64,000 nt of DNA from Candidatus Sulfotelmatobacter sp. (GTDB lineage: Bacteria > Acidobacteriota > Terriglobia > Terriglobales > Acidobacteriaceae). The number at the start of each line of letters is the position of its first letter. Within the stretch, counting starts at the first letter, position 1. Positions 45,829 through 53,419 of this stretch are shown one piece after another. A program made the position numbers and the translations under genes. The stretch spans positions 62,001-126,000 of the forward strand of contig DASYBM010000013.1 of the NCBI GenBank assembly GCA_036500765.1. The letters run 5' to 3'. Below the pieces are notes generated by a model. The model made no database searches and was not told the origin of the DNA. It saw only the letters and a program-made list of their open reading frames with translations.

Positions 45829-46389
45829 TCAACTGTTCCGATTGCGGTACAGCGCAGGATCCACGGCCCGAGCCATCGCCTCGACATTTAACTCCAGCTC
45901 CAGGAAATCCCGCACCGTTTTTGCGGCGCCCGTCGGGTCGGCGAGCGTCTTGCGGTATCCCATCCGGCAAACCGAGATTTCATTTCTGTGTTCTAGCCAG
46001 GCGATGACTTGCCGCAGGTGATCGCCAAAAGCGGCCGCGATCCGCGCTTGATCCACCGGCTCGATTCCACCGCGACGCTTGAGCATTTCATCCTGCGAGG
46101 CGAGGACCTCGGGGAGCGGACGCTCCATGAAGATCACCTTGTAGTTCCTACCGTGGGGAAGAGAAAGCAGAAGTTGGGAAATCACTTTTACGGCCTTGCC
46201 TTCCGCCTCATCGATGCGATCCGGTTGCTTGGGCAGGAGCTTGATCGGCTCCCACTCGCAATAGCCGCGCGGGTTGTCGATGTCGGGTTTGCGTTCCCGA
46301 TCGGTGAGCAGCGGAAGGCCGCCGGCGGCGAGCATTTGCATCATCAGCGATGTGCCGGAGCGAGGTAAGCCGGAGACGATGGTGATCAC
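45829..46389 (-). CDS. Sulfotransferase-family protein
   Basis: The 186-residue protein starts at GTG 46389 with VITIVSGLPRSGTSLMMQML, the 5'-phosphosulfate-binding loop of sulfotransferases that use PAPS. A second segment, IFMERPLPEVLASQDEML, resembles the 3'-phosphate-binding region. It would move sulfate from PAPS to a hydroxyl of a sugar, lipid or peptide. The gene overlaps the upstream gene by 4 nt (GTGA), so translation is coupled. It is short for the family (usually 250-300). It ends the minus-strand operon of phosphodiesterase-like genes. Confidence 0.85.
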   Translation of the reverse strand: MITIVSGLPRSGTSLMMQMLAAGGLPLLTDRERKPDIDNPRGYCEWEPIKLLPKQPDRIDEAEGKAVKVISQLLLSLPHGRNYKVIFMERPLPEVLASQDEMLKRRGGIEPVDQARIAAAFGDHLRQVIAWLEHRNEISVCRMGYRKTLADPTGAAKTVRDFLELELNVEAMARAVDPALYRNRNS

Positions 46390-48551
46390 GATTCCGCCGC
46401 TCCCGTGAAGCTTCCGACCGTCCAAGGTTTGCCATCCATGTGTCCCGGAAGGGCCAGACCAAAAAGTTTCAGAACCGTGGGAGCGACGTCGACGATGGCG
46501 GGCTTTTCGTCGGTGATTTTTCGATTGCAGAAAAGCACTCCCGGAACAAGGCGCGGATCGATGCAATGGTCGCCGCTCCAGGCTTTCAGATTGTCTTCGA
46601 AGATTTCGCTAGTGACCTTGCCCATCACGGAATCCCAGGACGCGCGGTAACCCTCACCGTAACCGACGATCAGGTCGGGGGCATTATCGACATAAGGGCC
46701 GGCATAGACCGCATCGCAGTCGAAGACACCGGTGATGCCGGGGCGGCCGGATGCGGGGTCGAGGAGCCCATCAAGTTTGCACCGCAGTTCTTCTTTTAAC
46801 GTGTCGGCGTCGGCGCCGGGTTCAACGATGCCCTCGCGCTCACGGCCTTTCAGATTCAGATAGAGTCCATTCAAGCCCATCGTGTAGGCGCGAGTGCGGG
46901 ACCAATCTACATCCTCGAACCAGTCGCCGCTCTCACTCTTTCCCGCTTTCAGCGCGAGATATCCGTTCTGGTGCAGCCACGCATTCAAGTTGAAGCACCG
47001 CGCAAACGATTTGAAGCCGTGGTCGGAGACGACCATGAGCAGAGTCTTGTCGTCGATCTGCTTCATCACCCGGCCGATCAGTTGGTCCATGCGGGCGTAA
47101 AGATTCTGGATCACCGGCGGATGTTGATCGTGCGGGACATCACGGGCGGCGGCGGGATGGTCCTCGTCGAGATAGCGCCAAAACATGTGCTGCACTCGGT
47201 CGGTGGTGTCGAAGACGCAGGCGCACAGGCCTTGCTGCGTTTTCTCCAGCGCATCAAACAGCATGCGCTCGCGATCGTCATGATTGGCATAACACTGCGC
47301 GAGAAAGGCGCCGTCGTCGAGAACCTGCTCGTTGAGGGCCCAGGTATCTTCCGCAAGTCCTAGAGTTGCGTAAGGGCCAAACAATTTGGCGAGGTAGATG
47401 GAGTATGTGACCGGATGAGAGATGGGCAGATCCGGCCGGCTGGGATCGATGTTTACCGGTGTGACGTAGACCTCGATTTCGGGCGAAAGTTCCTTGAGAT
47501 AGAAGCGACAAATTCCGTGCGCGCTGAAACCCACGCCCGCTTTGAACTTCACGGGAATCCACTCCGAGTACTCGCCGATTTTCAGAGTAAAGCTCTGCGA
47601 GTCAACGGTGACGCGGGCCTGCTTCTTTATCTCGTCAATGTGAAGTTCAAAACCCACCCGCAGTTCGTCATCGGAACCGGGTGTGAGCGGATCGTCAGGG
47701 CCGGGTATATAAGAACGGCAGATTGAGCCGGTACGCTCGACGGGAACGCGAACTCCACCTTCACGGAATTTGTCGCCGCGGGAGCGCGTGGTGCACAAAC
47801 AGAACGTTCCCTGGCTGCCTTTCAGGTCCGGGACGCACATGCCGGAAAGCAGTACGCCCGAGAATTTTTCGGGAGGAAAGGTGACGGGCACGCGAATCAC
47901 GGAACAAAAAATACCGGCCTCGCCCAGCCAATGCCAGAAAGGTATTCCCTTACGCATGCCTTTCATTCTCGGGCCGCCGAGGGGGATGGTGTATTTACCA
48001 ATTTTCCAACTGCGCTTTGGCGCCTTAATTTTCGCCGAGGAAAGATATGGAAGATAGCTGCTGAGATCGCGCGCGAGAAAATCGTAAATGTTGTGCTTGC
48101 CGGGGTTCACCCCGGTCATGAAGGTGGACCACGCGACGGGGGAAATCGCCGGATAGGTGGTTCGCAATTTCCGGAAACTTCCCCGCTCGCGAAGCTGGGC
48201 GAGATTGGGCAGCCGGCCTTCGGCGATGAAGCGTTCCGTCAGTTCCGGATCCATGCCGTCGAAGCCGAGAATTACTGCGCGTTTGATTTGCGCTTTGCCA
48301 TAAGCTTTGCGCCGCCGAAAGAAGCGAAATATTTGCCGGAAGGGCCAGACCAGAAAGGCGTAGATGGAATAGAGGAAAGCAACGAACAGCGTCCAGAAAG
48401 AAGAGAGGACGGCAAAACCCGCTCCTGGCCCGGCGTAGGCGCGGCTCGGTAGAGGCCATAGCAGGACGATTCCGAGAGCGGCTAGAAACAGTAGAATCCG
48501 ACGGCGCTCCGTTGAGGAATTGATGGCGGGCCGATTCGTATCTTTATTCAT
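46386..48551 (-). CDS. Membrane-anchored alkaline-phosphatase-superfamily phosphodiesterase (NPP-like), copy 1
   Basis: The 721-residue protein has one or two N-terminal hydrophobic segments (about 18-38 and 45-70). An AP-superfamily catalytic domain of the type I phosphodiesterase/nucleotide pyrophosphatase type follows: VILGFDGMDPELTERFI (metal Asp), PAISPVAWSTFMTG (nucleophile Ser/Thr region), VVSDHGFKSF and SGDHCIDP (metal His/Asp). It probably hydrolyses phosphodiesters or phosphomonoesters outside the cytoplasm; substrate unknown. It has ATGA overlap with the membrane-protein gene upstream and GTGA overlap with the sulfotransferase gene downstream. Confidence 0.88.
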   Translation of the reverse strand: MNKDTNRPAINSSTERRRILLFLAALGIVLLWPLPSRAYAGPGAGFAVLSSFWTLFVAFLYSIYAFLVWPFRQIFRFFRRRKAYGKAQIKRAVILGFDGMDPELTERFIAEGRLPNLAQLRERGSFRKLRTTYPAISPVAWSTFMTGVNPGKHNIYDFLARDLSSYLPYLSSAKIKAPKRSWKIGKYTIPLGGPRMKGMRKGIPFWHWLGEAGIFCSVIRVPVTFPPEKFSGVLLSGMCVPDLKGSQGTFCLCTTRSRGDKFREGGVRVPVERTGSICRSYIPGPDDPLTPGSDDELRVGFELHIDEIKKQARVTVDSQSFTLKIGEYSEWIPVKFKAGVGFSAHGICRFYLKELSPEIEVYVTPVNIDPSRPDLPISHPVTYSIYLAKLFGPYATLGLAEDTWALNEQVLDDGAFLAQCYANHDDRERMLFDALEKTQQGLCACVFDTTDRVQHMFWRYLDEDHPAAARDVPHDQHPPVIQNLYARMDQLIGRVMKQIDDKTLLMVVSDHGFKSFARCFNLNAWLHQNGYLALKAGKSESGDWFEDVDWSRTRAYTMGLNGLYLNLKGREREGIVEPGADADTLKEELRCKLDGLLDPASGRPGITGVFDCDAVYAGPYVDNAPDLIVGYGEGYRASWDSVMGKVTSEIFEDNLKAWSGDHCIDPRLVPGVLFCNRKITDEKPAIVDVAPTVLKLFGLALPGHMDGKPWTVGSFTGAAES

Positions 48552-49321
48552 ATCTCAATTCCAAGGATACTCTTGAACAAAAAGCCTGCCACGAGCGACA
48601 GGACGAAAAAGAGCCAGATCCAGTTCCATTCAAAGCCGGCGAAGGCTATGGTGCGAATCGGATACTGTACTTCGATGGCGTCGATCAATTTATTCTCGGG
48701 AATGGCGCGTTCTCCAGAAATAAAGATGCGCTCCCAGAATCTTCCGCGCAGACGTGCCGGTGACAAGCGTGGCAAACCGGAGCCTGCCACCAGGCTCTTC
48801 GAGAAAGTCTGTCCAGACGCCCTGATAGTGAGGATGTAGTTCCCGGCTTTTTCCGCCACCACTCTCCACGCAATTTCGTTTTCCGAAGGCACGTGTACTG
48901 CGGGGGCCGTTACCGCCATTCCCTGCGGAAGTTGCAGCGTTACCTCATTCGATGCCTCGGCATCGGACACCGTCAACTTGACTAAGAATGTCTGACCCGC
49001 AGGCACCGGTCCAAAGCCGAGATATCTATCGACTTGCACAATAAGAAAAGTGATGGGCACAATGACAAACAGCAAAGGCTTAAAAGCCAGCCGGAGATAG
49101 CGCCCCGTCGCCAGCACGATCCGGGCATAGGAGCGCATGACGACCGGGATCTGATCCTGAAAAAGCCGAAGCGCCAGCAGGTGGGCCTTGAGCCGATCCT
49201 TCGCAACGTGGATTGCTTTCTGGTCGGAGGTGTAGCGAAACACGACCACCATCGCGAGACCGACGACCAGCGAAAGTACGAAGACGATCGCGGCTGGGAT
49301 GTTGACTCCAAGAGAGCCCAT
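48548..49321 (-). CDS. Membrane protein, possibly distantly Oxa1/EMC3-like
   Basis: The 257-residue protein has TM segments near 6-28 (IPAAIVFVLSLVVGLAMVVV), 80-100 (LLFVIVPITFLIVQVD) and 232-252 (WLFFVLSLVAGFLFKSI). A polar amphipathic stretch (TSDQKAIHVAKDRLKAHLLA) joins the first two. Beta-rich extracytoplasmic sequence lies between (about 105-215, FLVKLTVSDAE, VTLQLPQGM, YILTIRASG). The TM-amphipathic-TM start is reminiscent of DUF106/EMC3/TMCO1 insertases, but that is a weak guess. The gene overlaps the phosphodiesterase gene by 4 nt (ATGA), so they likely act together. Confidence 0.5.
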   Translation of the reverse strand: MGSLGVNIPAAIVFVLSLVVGLAMVVVFRYTSDQKAIHVAKDRLKAHLLALRLFQDQIPVVMRSYARIVLATGRYLRLAFKPLLFVIVPITFLIVQVDRYLGFGPVPAGQTFLVKLTVSDAEASNEVTLQLPQGMAVTAPAVHVPSENEIAWRVVAEKAGNYILTIRASGQTFSKSLVAGSGLPRLSPARLRGRFWERIFISGERAIPENKLIDAIEVQYPIRTIAFAGFEWNWIWLFFVLSLVAGFLFKSILGIEI

Positions 49322-49347
49322 AGGAGCGGAAAGCGGTGAGGCGAATG

Positions 49348-49557
49348 CTACTCGATATATCCCAGCCCCTGGAGCCGCTTCTTTATGATTTCCTTTGAAG
49401 TGGAACCGCCCTCGCTGGGAGGCAGCACCTTATTCACTTCTTTTTCGAGAGCATGCACCACGAATTCGTCAACGGAAGCATAGCCGCAGGCTTCCGCGCA
49501 TTGCTTAACTTTATCGAGCAACTCGCCTTCTAACTTTACTCTATGAGAGCCGAACAT
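49348..49557 (-). CDS. Small ribbon-helix-helix-like protein
   Basis: The 69-residue protein begins MFGSHRVKLEGELLDKVKQC with a beta-strand then helix A. The turn GYASVDEFVVHALEKEVN fits the helix-turn-helix half of RHH proteins (CopG/MetJ-like). RHH proteins bind operators as dimers and could autoregulate this operon. The C-terminal helix (about 52-66) is free. It lies between two AP-superfamily genes on the same strand. Confidence 0.6.
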   Translation of the reverse strand: MFGSHRVKLEGELLDKVKQCAEACGYASVDEFVVHALEKEVNKVLPPSEGGSTSKEIIKKRLQGLGYIE

Positions 49558-49594
49558 ATGTGCTTAGAGTCGATCTCCCCAATCGCGGGAAAAA

Positions 49595-51589
49595 TTAGTG
49601 CGTCGTGCGCCGAAACACAGACTGTCCAATCATACCCTGTGCCTTAGCGATTCCAAACTCCGCGAGAATTGTAGGCGCAATGTCGGTGAGAGCGGGCGTG
49701 TCGGCGGAAATTTTTCGGTTGCTGAGCAAAACTCCGGGGACGAGAGTGTAGTCGATACAGTGATCGCCGCTCCAGGGATTGGTGTTGTCTTCGAGTTCAT
49801 CGGTGGGGAAAGCGCCTAAGATGGTCCGCCACCCGGCGCGGTAACCGCGGTTGTAGCCGACAAGCATATCCGGACCCTCTTTGGCATACGGACCCTGATA
49901 GGCCTCGCTGGCCAGGTCGACGCGCGTGATTACGGACAGCTTTGTTTTAGGATCCTGCACCGCAAGCAGCTTTGCCCGAATCTCTGCCATTAAACTGTCA
50001 GCCCCAGTTCCCGGCTGAACGATTCCATTGCTCTCGCGTCCGCGCAGATTTAGGTACAGCCCGTTGAGTCCGAGGCCGTAGGCACGCGTCTGGGTCCAAT
50101 CCACGTTCGGAAAGGGCTGCGTCGAACGGGACTCGCCTGAAGCCACACTATTTTTCAGCTTGATATAGCCCTGATTCAGCAGCCAGGTATTCAGATTGAA
50201 CGATCGATAATAGGGCGCGAATCCGTGGTCGGAAAGTACGAGCAGAGTCGTGCGCTCATCCAGATGCGGCAGCACTTCGCCCAGTACCTGATCCATCTGC
50301 TGGTAGAAGTCCTCAATCGCCGACCCATTCTGCGCAGCCAGCGCGGCGTCGTACTCGGGATGTTTTGGATCCATCAGGCGCCAGAACATGTGCGAGTTGA
50401 GATCGAGGCTGGAGAAATAGAAAAAGAAAACTCCTCGATGAAACTTGGGAAACTCGGCGTCGAAGATGCGGCGATGCTCCGCCAGCACGCTTCGCGCCTG
50501 CTGTAGGTACTCGTTATCGTCGAGCATGCCGTCGGAAAGCGCTTTTGTGTCTTCGGCGATTCCCTGGGTGTGAAATTCTCCGGCTTCGTCGGTCAGAAGA
50601 CCGGAGTAATTGGACGGCGTTGAAATCGGCAGCGCGGGAGATGCAGGGTCGATGTTCATGGGCGAAACGTACAACTGAAAGCGGGGATGCGCCTGCTTGA
50701 GATAGAACCGGCACATCCCTTTTACGTTGCCAAAGAAGGGAATCAGCTGAAACTCAACGCGAACCCAAGCGCTCCACTCCCCCTCGCGCAGAACAAATTC
50801 CCGGCCCTGCACCGCGACCTTGGCCACGGACTCCAGCGGATCGACCGCTACGGAAAAGGGTTCAGTGGCGGGCGGCGAACCTTTGCGAAACGAATTGTCA
50901 GGTCCGATCAGGTTGGCGGTTACGCGCGAGTTCGCGACTTGCACAGGAATAATTTGGCCACCCTCAACGGCACCGGAGGCGGTCGTCGGGTCGTCCGTGT
51001 AGAACGAAAATGTGCCGTAGGTTCCGCGCAGATCGGGAGTGCCCATCCCGGAGAGCGTTTTTCCCTTGGCGGGCACGGGCGGGAAATTCGAGGGTATGCG
51101 AAAAATTGTGTTGGGGATGGCGTGCTCATCGAGAATCTGCCAGAAGGCCGTGCCCTTCCGCAATTGTTCGGCGCTGCCACCGCCGAGCGGAATCGTCCAA
51201 CTGCCAATATCGATCGAGTGCTTGGGGCCTTCGACGCGCGAGGCCGAGAAATAAAGCGACAGCGTCTTAGGATCGCGATGGATGAAATCGAAGAGGCCGT
51301 GACCGCCAGCATTCATGCCGGTTATCATGTTCGACCACGCCACCGGACTCTGCGGCGGGATGCTGCTGGTGAGCAGGCGGAAATCTCCCTGGCTTTCCAG
51401 CTTTGCGAAGTTGGGCATCTTGCCTTCGCGCATGAAGCGGTGCAGGAGCTGAGGATCCATGCCGTCGATGCCGAGAATGATCAACCGCTGATTGCTTGAC
51501 GAATTCGCTCGCTCGGAGTGGCAGGAGCTCAGTATGCCCGCCGCGTTGAGCAGCAGGCACACACACAGTACTGGGAAGAGTTTCTTCAG
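49595..51589 (-). CDS. Lipoprotein alkaline-phosphatase-superfamily phosphodiesterase, copy 2; likely CTG start
   Basis: The protein resembles copy 1 but lacks its TM region. Catalytic motifs are IILGIDGMDPQLLHRFM, PPQSPVAWSNMITG, LVLSDHGFAPYYRS and SGDHCIDYT. It ends with a lipobox-like segment at the N-terminus (GILSSC). A start at CTG 51589 with GAAGGA 8 nt upstream gives MKKLFPVLCVCLLLNAAGIL, a standard lipoprotein signal. The usual choice, GTG 51562, would drop the charged n-region. Length is 664 residues from CTG. The protein would be anchored to the membrane outside the cytoplasm. The gene opens the minus-strand operon and is divergent from the sulfatase-like gene. Confidence 0.85.
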   Translation of the reverse strand: MKKLFPVLCVCLLLNAAGILSSCHSERANSSSNQRLIILGIDGMDPQLLHRFMREGKMPNFAKLESQGDFRLLTSSIPPQSPVAWSNMITGMNAGGHGLFDFIHRDPKTLSLYFSASRVEGPKHSIDIGSWTIPLGGGSAEQLRKGTAFWQILDEHAIPNTIFRIPSNFPPVPAKGKTLSGMGTPDLRGTYGTFSFYTDDPTTASGAVEGGQIIPVQVANSRVTANLIGPDNSFRKGSPPATEPFSVAVDPLESVAKVAVQGREFVLREGEWSAWVRVEFQLIPFFGNVKGMCRFYLKQAHPRFQLYVSPMNIDPASPALPISTPSNYSGLLTDEAGEFHTQGIAEDTKALSDGMLDDNEYLQQARSVLAEHRRIFDAEFPKFHRGVFFFYFSSLDLNSHMFWRLMDPKHPEYDAALAAQNGSAIEDFYQQMDQVLGEVLPHLDERTTLLVLSDHGFAPYYRSFNLNTWLLNQGYIKLKNSVASGESRSTQPFPNVDWTQTRAYGLGLNGLYLNLRGRESNGIVQPGTGADSLMAEIRAKLLAVQDPKTKLSVITRVDLASEAYQGPYAKEGPDMLVGYNRGYRAGWRTILGAFPTDELEDNTNPWSGDHCIDYTLVPGVLLSNRKISADTPALTDIAPTILAEFGIAKAQGMIGQSVFRRTTH

Positions 51590-51697: not shown

Positions 51698-53419
51698 ATG
51701 TTTCGGCGCTTGGGCTCATGGCTCTTTGTGGGCATTCTACCTCTGGTTGCTTTCCCGGTCGACTCTTCCGCCGCGAACGTCGCATCCAAATCTAGGCCGA
51801 ATATCATCCTGATTACTCTGGACTCGACGCGGGCTGATCACATGGGATTTATGGGCGCTCGCGGCAACCTCACTCCCAGTCTCGATGCGATCGCGCATCA
51901 GGGGATGGTTTTTGCCCAGGCTTATGCGCAGGCTCCCGATACGGTGGCCTCGAACGCAACCGTCCTCACTGGCACATATCCGCAGAGCCATCGCGCGAGC
52001 GAACTCAGCGTTCCTCTGACGCCGAAGCTGCCGTACTTGCCGGACCTTTTGCACGTTAACGGATACTCTACCGCGGCATTTGTGGGATCGATTCTTCTGG
52101 ATCCGCGGAACGGCCCGTTTCAAGATTATGACCGCGGATTCGATTCGTATGATGCCGGATTCCACGAGGCGCAGCGCGGCCAGAGCCGCTTTCAATCCGT
52201 AGAGCGCCACGGAGATCAGGTGGTAGCGCATGCGACCAAATGGCTGGCGGCCAATACGCGGCGGCCATTTTTTCTTTGGCTGAACCTGGCGGATGATCCT
52301 TATGCCGTTTCGTATGACCGCAGTGTCGCCGCTGTCGATGCCGTAGTTGGCAAGTTGGTCGCTTCTCTGCGAAACCAGTCGCTCTATGATGACGCTCTGA
52401 TTGTGATGGCATCGTCTTATGGCGAGAGTCTAGGGGCGCACGCAGAGGACACGCACGGCATTTTTCTTTACGACGAAACCATCCATGTGGCGCTGGTGGT
52501 GAAACTGCCGAAGAATCAATTTGCAGGAAAGCAGGTGAAGAACCGTGCGCGCCTGCTCGATATTGCACCTACCGTCTTGGCTGAGGCTGGCATCGCTGTG
52601 CCTGCGCAGATGCAGGGGCAGTCTTTGCTGCGAATCGCGCTGGCCACTTCCCAGAGCGATCAACCGGCATACGCGCGCAGCGAACTTCCGCAGCAGGGCT
52701 TTGGATGCAGCGTGATTGAATCCTGGCGGGCGGGAAAATATTTGTACATCCGCGCGCCCAAGCCGGAGTTGTACGATCTATCCCTCGATCCGAACGCCAC
52801 GCACAACCTGGTGCAAAATGCGAAAGCGACGCTTGACACCATGGCTTCGCAACTACAAGCACTGGATAGCCACCTAACGACCGAGGCCGGCAAATCGGCC
52901 GAGTCCGGGCTGACTTCGAGCGAGATGCAGAAGCTGGCCTCGCTGGGATATGTCGGACTACAGAAGGGCGGCGCGGGCGTGAAGGCTGCAACAGAGGGCA
53001 GCGATCCCAAAGACATCATCGCGGCCGTCAATAAGACTCTCGCTGCGATCTCTGAGCTGGACGATGGTAAGCCAGAAAAGGCGCTGCCCTGGCTGCGGCA
53101 AGTGCTTGCCTCACTTCCCAATACCTACCTCGCGCAATATGGCGCGGGTGTCGCATCGGTTATGCAGCAGCAATATCCGGAGGCGATTGCCTATCTGCAC
53201 AAAGCGATCGAACTCCAGCCCAATTCTGCCTGGGCGCACTATCAGATGGGTCTCAGCCTGATGAAGACTGGCGATTTCAAGACAGCCGCTGTCCACCTTG
53301 AAATCGCGTCGGGGCGGCTGCCCGAATTTGCCGGTCTGCATTCTCTGCTGGCGGAGGCGTACGAGCGTCTGGGACGAAACTCCGAAGCAGCCGGCGAGCG
53401 GGCCAAAGCTTCGCATTAA
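51698..53419 (+). CDS. Sulfatase-like/TPR protein with eroded catalytic site
   Basis: The 573-residue protein has a signal peptide (about 1-25, LFVGILPLVAFPVDSSAA) and a sulfatase-fold domain (about 32-380): PNIILITLDSTRADHMG and TVASNATVLTGTYP. Canonical relatives have a metal Asp-His in DHGESLG and DPH before PY; here those read SYGESLG and ADDPY. The PAH/PSH after the nucleophile Thr reads ASN. Two metal ligands are therefore lost. A C-terminal TPR pair (about 470-570, YAGVASVMQQQYPEAIAYLH-like) follows. It may bind, not cleave, its target. ATG at 51698; no good ribosome site. About 108 nt separate it from the divergent operon. Confidence 0.8.
   Translation: MFRRLGSWLFVGILPLVAFPVDSSAANVASKSRPNIILITLDSTRADHMGFMGARGNLTPSLDAIAHQGMVFAQAYAQAPDTVASNATVLTGTYPQSHRASELSVPLTPKLPYLPDLLHVNGYSTAAFVGSILLDPRNGPFQDYDRGFDSYDAGFHEAQRGQSRFQSVERHGDQVVAHATKWLAANTRRPFFLWLNLADDPYAVSYDRSVAAVDAVVGKLVASLRNQSLYDDALIVMASSYGESLGAHAEDTHGIFLYDETIHVALVVKLPKNQFAGKQVKNRARLLDIAPTVLAEAGIAVPAQMQGQSLLRIALATSQSDQPAYARSELPQQGFGCSVIESWRAGKYLYIRAPKPELYDLSLDPNATHNLVQNAKATLDTMASQLQALDSHLTTEAGKSAESGLTSSEMQKLASLGYVGLQKGGAGVKAATEGSDPKDIIAAVNKTLAAISELDDGKPEKALPWLRQVLASLPNTYLAQYGAGVASVMQQQYPEAIAYLHKAIELQPNSAWAHYQMGLSLMKTGDFKTAAVHLEIASGRLPEFAGLHSLLAEAYERLGRNSEAAGERAKASH

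Follow-up and report, generated by a model that had tools for sequence, protein, structure and literature searches.

Three-transmembrane (TM) proteins of the DUF106/EMC3 type within the Oxa1 superfamily are treated as archaeal and eukaryotic in passages of two earlier papers, with bacteria represented by the longer YidC form (PMC8675477, PMC8887752), and a third describes lipid scrambling by YidC, Oxa1 and Get1 in vitro and by Emc3 and TMCO1 in silico (PMC10491306). Here we describe a bacterial locus that bears on both points, located in a stretch of 64,000 nucleotides from Candidatus Sulfotelmatobacter sp. (contig DASYBM010000013.1; hereafter the window). As an earlier note on this DNA had read it, the segment 45829-51589 holds genes for two phosphodiesterases of the alkaline phosphatase (AP) superfamily (PDE1 and PDE2), a membrane protein (MEM), a ribbon-helix-helix protein (RHH) and a sulfotransferase (ST), all of which lie on the minus strand in the transcription order PDE1-RHH-MEM-PDE2-ST. 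The ATGA and GTGA overlaps ascribed to the operon are present at its last two junctions, MEM/PDE2 and PDE2/ST respectively, whereas the first two have gaps of 37 bp (PDE1-RHH) and 26 bp (RHH-MEM). Every part comes from a known superfamily; the assembly, and a bacterial MEM bearing an immunoglobulin (Ig)-like domain, appear to be undescribed.

Sequence comparison gives good support for MEM being a bacterial protein distantly homologous to the archaeal type of the Oxa1 superfamily; its predicted outer loop carries an Ig-like domain. The window MEM has no Pfam match at E 0.1. A profile of 49 MEMs compared with all PDB chains reaches the archaeal YidC-like protein MJ0480 (PDB 5c8j) at E 1.3e-9, with TM3 aligned weakly but collinearly, and nothing else is matched at E 1 or better except filamin Ig domains (E 0.17-1), which fall on the middle part. 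For scale, MJ0480 as a query reaches bacterial YidC2 at E 0.014. The hhalign probability is ~92-94 for MEM with MJ0480, 85 for MJ0480 with YidC and 0.1 for MEM with 30 bacterial YidCs (PF02096), on which basis we rejected MEM as a variant YidC; an ordinary YidC is encoded elsewhere in the source genome (G000:C2). Residues 4-106 of MEM align to MJ0480 with a score of 42.3, compared with 12.5-13.5 for reversed controls and best scores of 28.8 among 200 block shuffles and 23.9 among 200 MJ0480 shuffles that keep the hydrophobic pattern. A profile to which MJ0480 had been added is circular and was not used as evidence, and no archaeal homologue for the family alignment was matched in the plasmids searched.

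The AlphaFold2 model of MEM (pLDDT 94.0, pTM 0.83) comprises TM1 (residues 8-31), a helix at 34-53, a long helix at 58-101, a beta domain at ~105-183 and TM3 (234-253). It contains the Oxa1-type core of three TM helices with a cytosolic helical hairpin between the first two, in the order TM1, cytosolic helices, TM2, Ig domain and TM3, the orientation being taken from a positive-inside reading of the sequence. The beta domain resembles invasin and filamin domains (VIA-align Z 6.4 over ~75 residues, rmsd 2.2). The earlier note described MEM simply as a membrane protein and missed its Oxa1-superfamily homology; insertase function would be a candidate role.

The core formed by the phosphodiesterases, RHH and MEM is a widely conserved module. 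A search with PDE2, limited to one genome per species, yielded 80 loci, with MEM present in 71; several of the nine loci that lack it are on cut contigs. A small open reading frame (ORF) ending in LGY was found by script directly upstream of MEM in 65 of these 71 loci, and RHH was picked up by profile in L115, L130 and L136, where in the last it follows MEM; in the remaining three, MEM is at the contig edge. The record titles span Acidobacteriota, Armatimonadota, Eisenbacteria, Planctomycetota, Deltaproteobacteria, Nitrospirae, Bacillota and others. At least one of these titles looks mislabelled, that of the module-bearing contig L124, which is titled as a 'Klebsiella pneumoniae' metagenome-assembled genome. 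Terriglobia have the genes arranged as PDE1-RHH-MEM-PDE2, and the loci outside this class mostly as PDE2-PDE1-RHH-MEM.

Because a phosphodiesterase query brings bias, a second search used the MEM profile alone against 149 Acidobacteriota genomes. MEM occurs in 38 of them, always as a single copy, and in 29 of 100 genera. Besides the source genome, all 37 MEM genomes carry a PF01663-type gene directly upstream of MEM on the same strand, and the LGY script recovered RHH in 35 of these loci, to which a profile added L169; in L187 no RHH was seen between PDE1 and MEM. In ten Acidobacteriota loci (L161, L162, L163, L169, L171, L172, L174, L175, L177 and L182), PDE2 is preceded by one more PF01663-type enzyme, the third of the locus, which is smaller (~390-480 aa) and shows no signal; the L171 copy was confirmed by Pfam. 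Since the core recurs in 37/37 other Acidobacteriota loci and in several other phyla, the gene set reflects more than chance. Conservation of gene order in relatives, on which the earlier note had made its proposal depend, holds for the core. It does not extend to all five genes together, because ST is absent from most Terriglobia copies, and we rejected the full set as a unit in favour of ST as an accessory that adjoins only part of the modules. Among the matches listed in literature searches, none described this module or an EMC3-type protein from bacteria, and for COG3379 nothing related was listed, judged by title.

Domain and motif content indicate that ST is a sulfotransferase of the type dependent on 3'-phosphoadenosine 5'-phosphosulfate (PAPS). 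It scores 37.5 bits with PF13469 (cut-off 27) and 27.7 bits with PF00685 (cut-off 22), and PRSGTS, R89 and S97 are invariant across 19 ST homologues. We take PRSGTS to be the P-loop of the 5'-phosphosulfate-binding (5'-PSB) motif and R89/S97 the 3'-phosphate-binding (3'-PB) motif, so that PAPS binding is probably retained. The source genome (G000; 5.04 Mb, 99.3% complete) encodes an adenosine 5'-phosphosulfate (APS) kinase (E 5.8e-57), and the cell can therefore make PAPS. Elsewhere in this genome, APS kinase and four of the sulfotransferase-like stretches it contains lie within 39 kb (G000:C4:1602010-1640826), apparently a separate sulfation-related cluster.

Both functions co-occur with the module across the same 149 genomes. 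Without correction for deeper relatedness, ST (E<=1e-20) is present in 21/38 MEM genomes and 6/111 others (p 1.9e-10), and APS kinase in 37/38 and 48/111 (p 4.1e-10); counted by genus, the figures are 15/29 against 5/71 for ST (p 2e-6), and 28/29 against 41/71 for APS kinase (p 8e-5). All 27 genomes with ST have APS kinase, and ST lies <=14 kb from MEM in 16 of the 21 genomes that carry both. Sulfation families, counted as ST, CysC, Sat, CysD, CysN and CysQ (the last three named by eye, the CysD query being found as a PAPS_reduct domain), occur in 15/37 MEM loci (410 kb) and in 19/80 PDE2-seeded loci; 20 stretches of 20 kb each (400 kb), picked at random from some of the MEM-bearing genomes, contain none (Fisher p 4.7e-4 against the MEM loci). 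Upstream extension of 16 of the 37 MEM loci, most of them picked for an already-seen third phosphodiesterase or sulfation gene, revealed sulfation genes in seven. Same-strand arrangements include RHH2-Sat-CysC-PDE3 (G041, G056) or CysD-CysN-PDE3 (G060, G128) ahead of PDE2-PDE1-RHH-MEM, and Sat and CysC preceding PDE2 (L115), while in L113 and L116 Sat and CysC are in a convergent operon with further phosphodiesterases and DUF2061. The link to a sulfate donor supposed earlier is supported by the APS kinase, the ST motifs, and the co-occurrence and physical linkage with the module, and we judge the genetic tie of the module to PAPS synthesis and a PAPS-type sulfotransferase to be real.

PDE1 and PDE2 match PF01663 with 105.2 and 124.3 bits (cut-off 23) and are paralogues with 41% identity. 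All 22 sequences aligned share D98, S137, D451, H455, D510, H511 and H662 (numbered as in PDE2), and by sequence both AP-superfamily active sites are intact. Profile alignment places S137 at the Thr position of ENPP1 that we take to be the nucleophile. PDE1 starts at CTG 51589, the end given in the earlier note, or at GTG 51562; if the former is used, the sequence, which has a lipobox, reads as a lipoprotein (LKKLFPVLCVCLLLNAAGILSSC). PDE1 is predicted to be exported. Among 107 PDE1-type proteins, a crude motif script recognised 51 as lipobox-like, 19 as Tat-like and 20 as hydrophobic only, with 8 lacking a recognised core, 6 lacking a signal and 3 carrying a PDE2-type anchor. PDE2 begins with the anchor AYAGPGAGF followed by a basic stretch. 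In all 75 PDE2-type proteins with a GPGxG anchor, there is no K/R between motif and helix, and the segment from helix to core has on average 8.1 K/R (minimum 4) and 0.4 D/E, a pattern that by the positive-inside rule would place the catalytic core in the cytosol. The two enzymes are therefore predicted to lie on opposite faces of the membrane, so that the hydrolysis outside the membrane that was earlier proposed for both would hold for PDE1 only.

This anchor pattern would also suit a dedicated insertase or chaperone, with MEM inserting the N-out anchor of PDE2 (AYxGPGAGF...) and assembling PDE1 and PDE2, as EMC does for N-out helices. Anchors of the PDE2 kind are a known type of YidC/EMC client, MEM is homologous to insertases, and it stands beside phosphodiesterase genes in 37/37 loci. 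However, the resident YidC is already available in the genome, and insertion alone would explain neither the link to PAPS genes nor the exported paralogue PDE1, so that we regard this explanation as rather unlikely. The phosphodiesterases could instead be nucleotide hydrolases of APS, PAPS or 3'-phosphoadenosine 5'-phosphate (pAp), resembling nucleotide pyrophosphatase/phosphodiesterases (NPPs), within a module that balances PAPS supply under regulation by RHH. No PDB chain is reached by the phosphodiesterases at E 1e-5; in profile comparison the solved structures closest to them are those of ENPP1 and of NPPs from bacteria (E 1e-4 to 4e-4). Some genomes have CysC, Sat and CysQ-like genes within the operon or close to it. 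Yet PDE1 is predicted to be exported to where PAPS is not found, MEM would be left without a role and pAp is already recycled by CysQ-type enzymes, which makes this improbable. Simple scavenging, in which periplasmic and cytosolic phosphodiesterases free phosphate or sulfate from diesters beside incidental sulfation neighbours, would suit the AP-superfamily hydrolases that flank the module and the lack of nearby sulfation genes in most Terriglobia copies, but is very improbable given the enrichment of APS kinase and ST in MEM genomes, still significant by genus, and the control stretches devoid of sulfation genes.

The window RHH has no Pfam match at E 0.1; RHH_1 (PF01402) matches 7 of 31 RHH homologues (best E 1.2e-5), and matches of the NikR profile are weak. 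A C-terminal tail of the form LxxLGY(I/L) is near-invariant in the RHH family. Close to such modules (L113, L116, L246, L247) it reappears on other proteins, namely APS kinase, DUF2061, a second RHH and sulfatase-like ones; in all, 112 of 11,938 distinct ORF tails have it, 84 of those being labelled RHH. It could serve as a docking tag or reflect a common way for helices to end. The LGY tails on CysC and CysD were dropped as proof of a shared docking tag, as such tails may be generic in these families; the C-terminus of the L158 CysC reads ENGYLKHR.

We tentatively favour a conserved membrane module that is coupled to PAPS-dependent sulfation and processes a membrane-borne lipid or glycan, a reading we hold to be quite possible though short of probable, and in which we infer the substrate class and the roles of MEM and RHH. 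On the cytosolic side, ST would sulfate a lipid in the membrane or a glycan linked to such a lipid, and MEM would pass the head group across the bilayer, or hold it there, via an Oxa1-type groove, with its Ig domain docking PDE1. Working at the two leaflets, PDE2 inside and PDE1 outside could then cleave off the phospho- or sulfo-ester head group or transfer it, while RHH would regulate the operon or dock on a partner through its conserved tail. The product may be an envelope glycan or lipid, as the earlier note supposed. A more specific version, in which an Ig-bearing bacterial EMC3-type branch was recruited away from general membrane-protein insertion and moves a sulfated lipid carrier between leaflets or holds it there, with matched phosphodiesterases on the two faces, PAPS-making enzymes feeding it and the LGY tail of RHH and its neighbours as a docking tag, is doubtful.

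Several observations weigh against the favoured mechanism or the assignment of MEM on which it draws. The topologies are based on the positive-inside rule and signal motifs. In the DNA examined, sulfation genes are missing from most Terriglobia copies (L065-L093 except L066 and L080), and ST-family members also lie away from any module in further genomes of this genus. Structure searches with the whole MEM model matched only its Ig part, and Foldseek gave no significant match for MEM or for its TM1-TM2 fragment. The only Oxa1-like match, chain 8 of the multipass translocon 7tut, presumably TMCO1 from its length and context, aligns to all 102 residues of the MEM fragment (Z 7.8, rmsd 3.5), but ABC transporters score alike or better (MsbA Z 8.4). 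PF01956 (EMC3_TMCO1) matches 10/49 MEMs at E<=1 (best E 4.6e-4), no better than LapA_dom, which matches 16/49; the window MEM is unmatched by PF01956, and the source genome has no match to it over the cut-off.

Features of the locus in the window, with the basis of each assignment.
Feature	Position	Strand	Basis
PDE1, predicted exported type-I phosphodiesterase of the AP superfamily, predicted lipoprotein	49595..51589	-	PF01663, lipobox, invariant ligands and Ser nucleophile
RHH, putative ribbon-helix-helix protein of 69 aa ending in the near-invariant tail RLxGLGYIE	49348..49557	-	homologue profile matches
MEM, 257 aa, three TM, homologue of archaeal YidC-like MJ0480 (Oxa1 superfamily, DUF106/EMC3 type)	48548..49321	-	profile, hhalign, AlphaFold
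MEM residues 105-183, Ig/filamin-like domain inserted between TM2 and TM3, periplasmic by prediction	48773..49009	-	model strands 111-179
PDE2, membrane-anchored type-I phosphodiesterase, catalytic domain predicted cytosolic	46386..48551	-	PF01663, positive-inside pattern
ST, 186-aa putative PAPS-type sulfotransferase, GTG start overlapping PDE2 stop codon	45829..46389	-	PF13469, invariant motifs
Divergent exported AP-superfamily hydrolase with tetratricopeptide repeats (TPR), annotated 'sulfatase'	51698..53419	+	PF00884 116.4 bits

The start of the divergent TPR hydrolase, which lies upstream of the operon, was chosen by eye (ATG 51698). Sulfatases that depend on formylglycine (FGly) carry a motif of the CxPxR type, whereas in 49 sequences of this family the nucleophile column holds Thr in 37, Ser in 12 and Cys in none, with SH or SN replacing the PxR part. 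An FGly-dependent sulfatase role was ruled out on these grounds, and the 'sulfatase' annotation is doubtful because the nucleophile site has Thr or Ser and never Cys. The gene is a frequent neighbour of the module, its membership being unproven. Further away, window positions 4302-36720 hold, by eye, a type VI secretion-like cluster (IcmF/TssM-like of 1156 aa, TssB/TssC-like, ClpV-like, VgrG-like).

The existence in bacteria of a divergent MEM, which has acquired a new outer domain and is kept in a strictly conserved operon, is relevant to the evolution of the Oxa1 superfamily. The module also offers a simple system for asking whether Oxa1 proteins can have lipids, and not proteins, as their substrates. 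In Acidobacteriota and further phyla, sulfotransferases and 'alkaline phosphatase family proteins' that are otherwise anonymous would, in addition, gain a testable shared pathway.

Compared with known systems, MEM shares with MJ0480 and the EMC3/TMCO1/Get1 branch the order TM1, cytosolic helices, TM2 and TM3, and ~100 homologous residues that include the TM2 motif (K/R)P-x6-P...YGF/YLGF. In contrast, it is bacterial and exists alongside an ordinary YidC, has an Ig-like domain in place of the short outer loop and a shorter cytosolic region, falls below the level of Pfam PF01956 and is always encoded with phosphodiesterases. The phosphodiesterases keep the metal ligands and nucleophile position of the NPPs (PF01663; ENPP1, Xanthomonas NPP), but have a putative Ser nucleophile within SPVAW where ENPP1 has Thr, contain a large inserted domain, and form paired paralogues predicted on opposite faces that are below PDB detection at E 1e-5. 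ST resembles PAPS-dependent sulfotransferases (Sulfotransfer_3, PF13469) in its PAPS-binding motifs, yet is only ~186 aa long and linked to the module of phosphodiesterases and MEM. RHH shows the beta-strand and helix pattern of CopG/NikR-type proteins, from which it differs by the near-invariant C-terminal RLxGLGYI(E/S) tail and by nearly always adjoining MEM.

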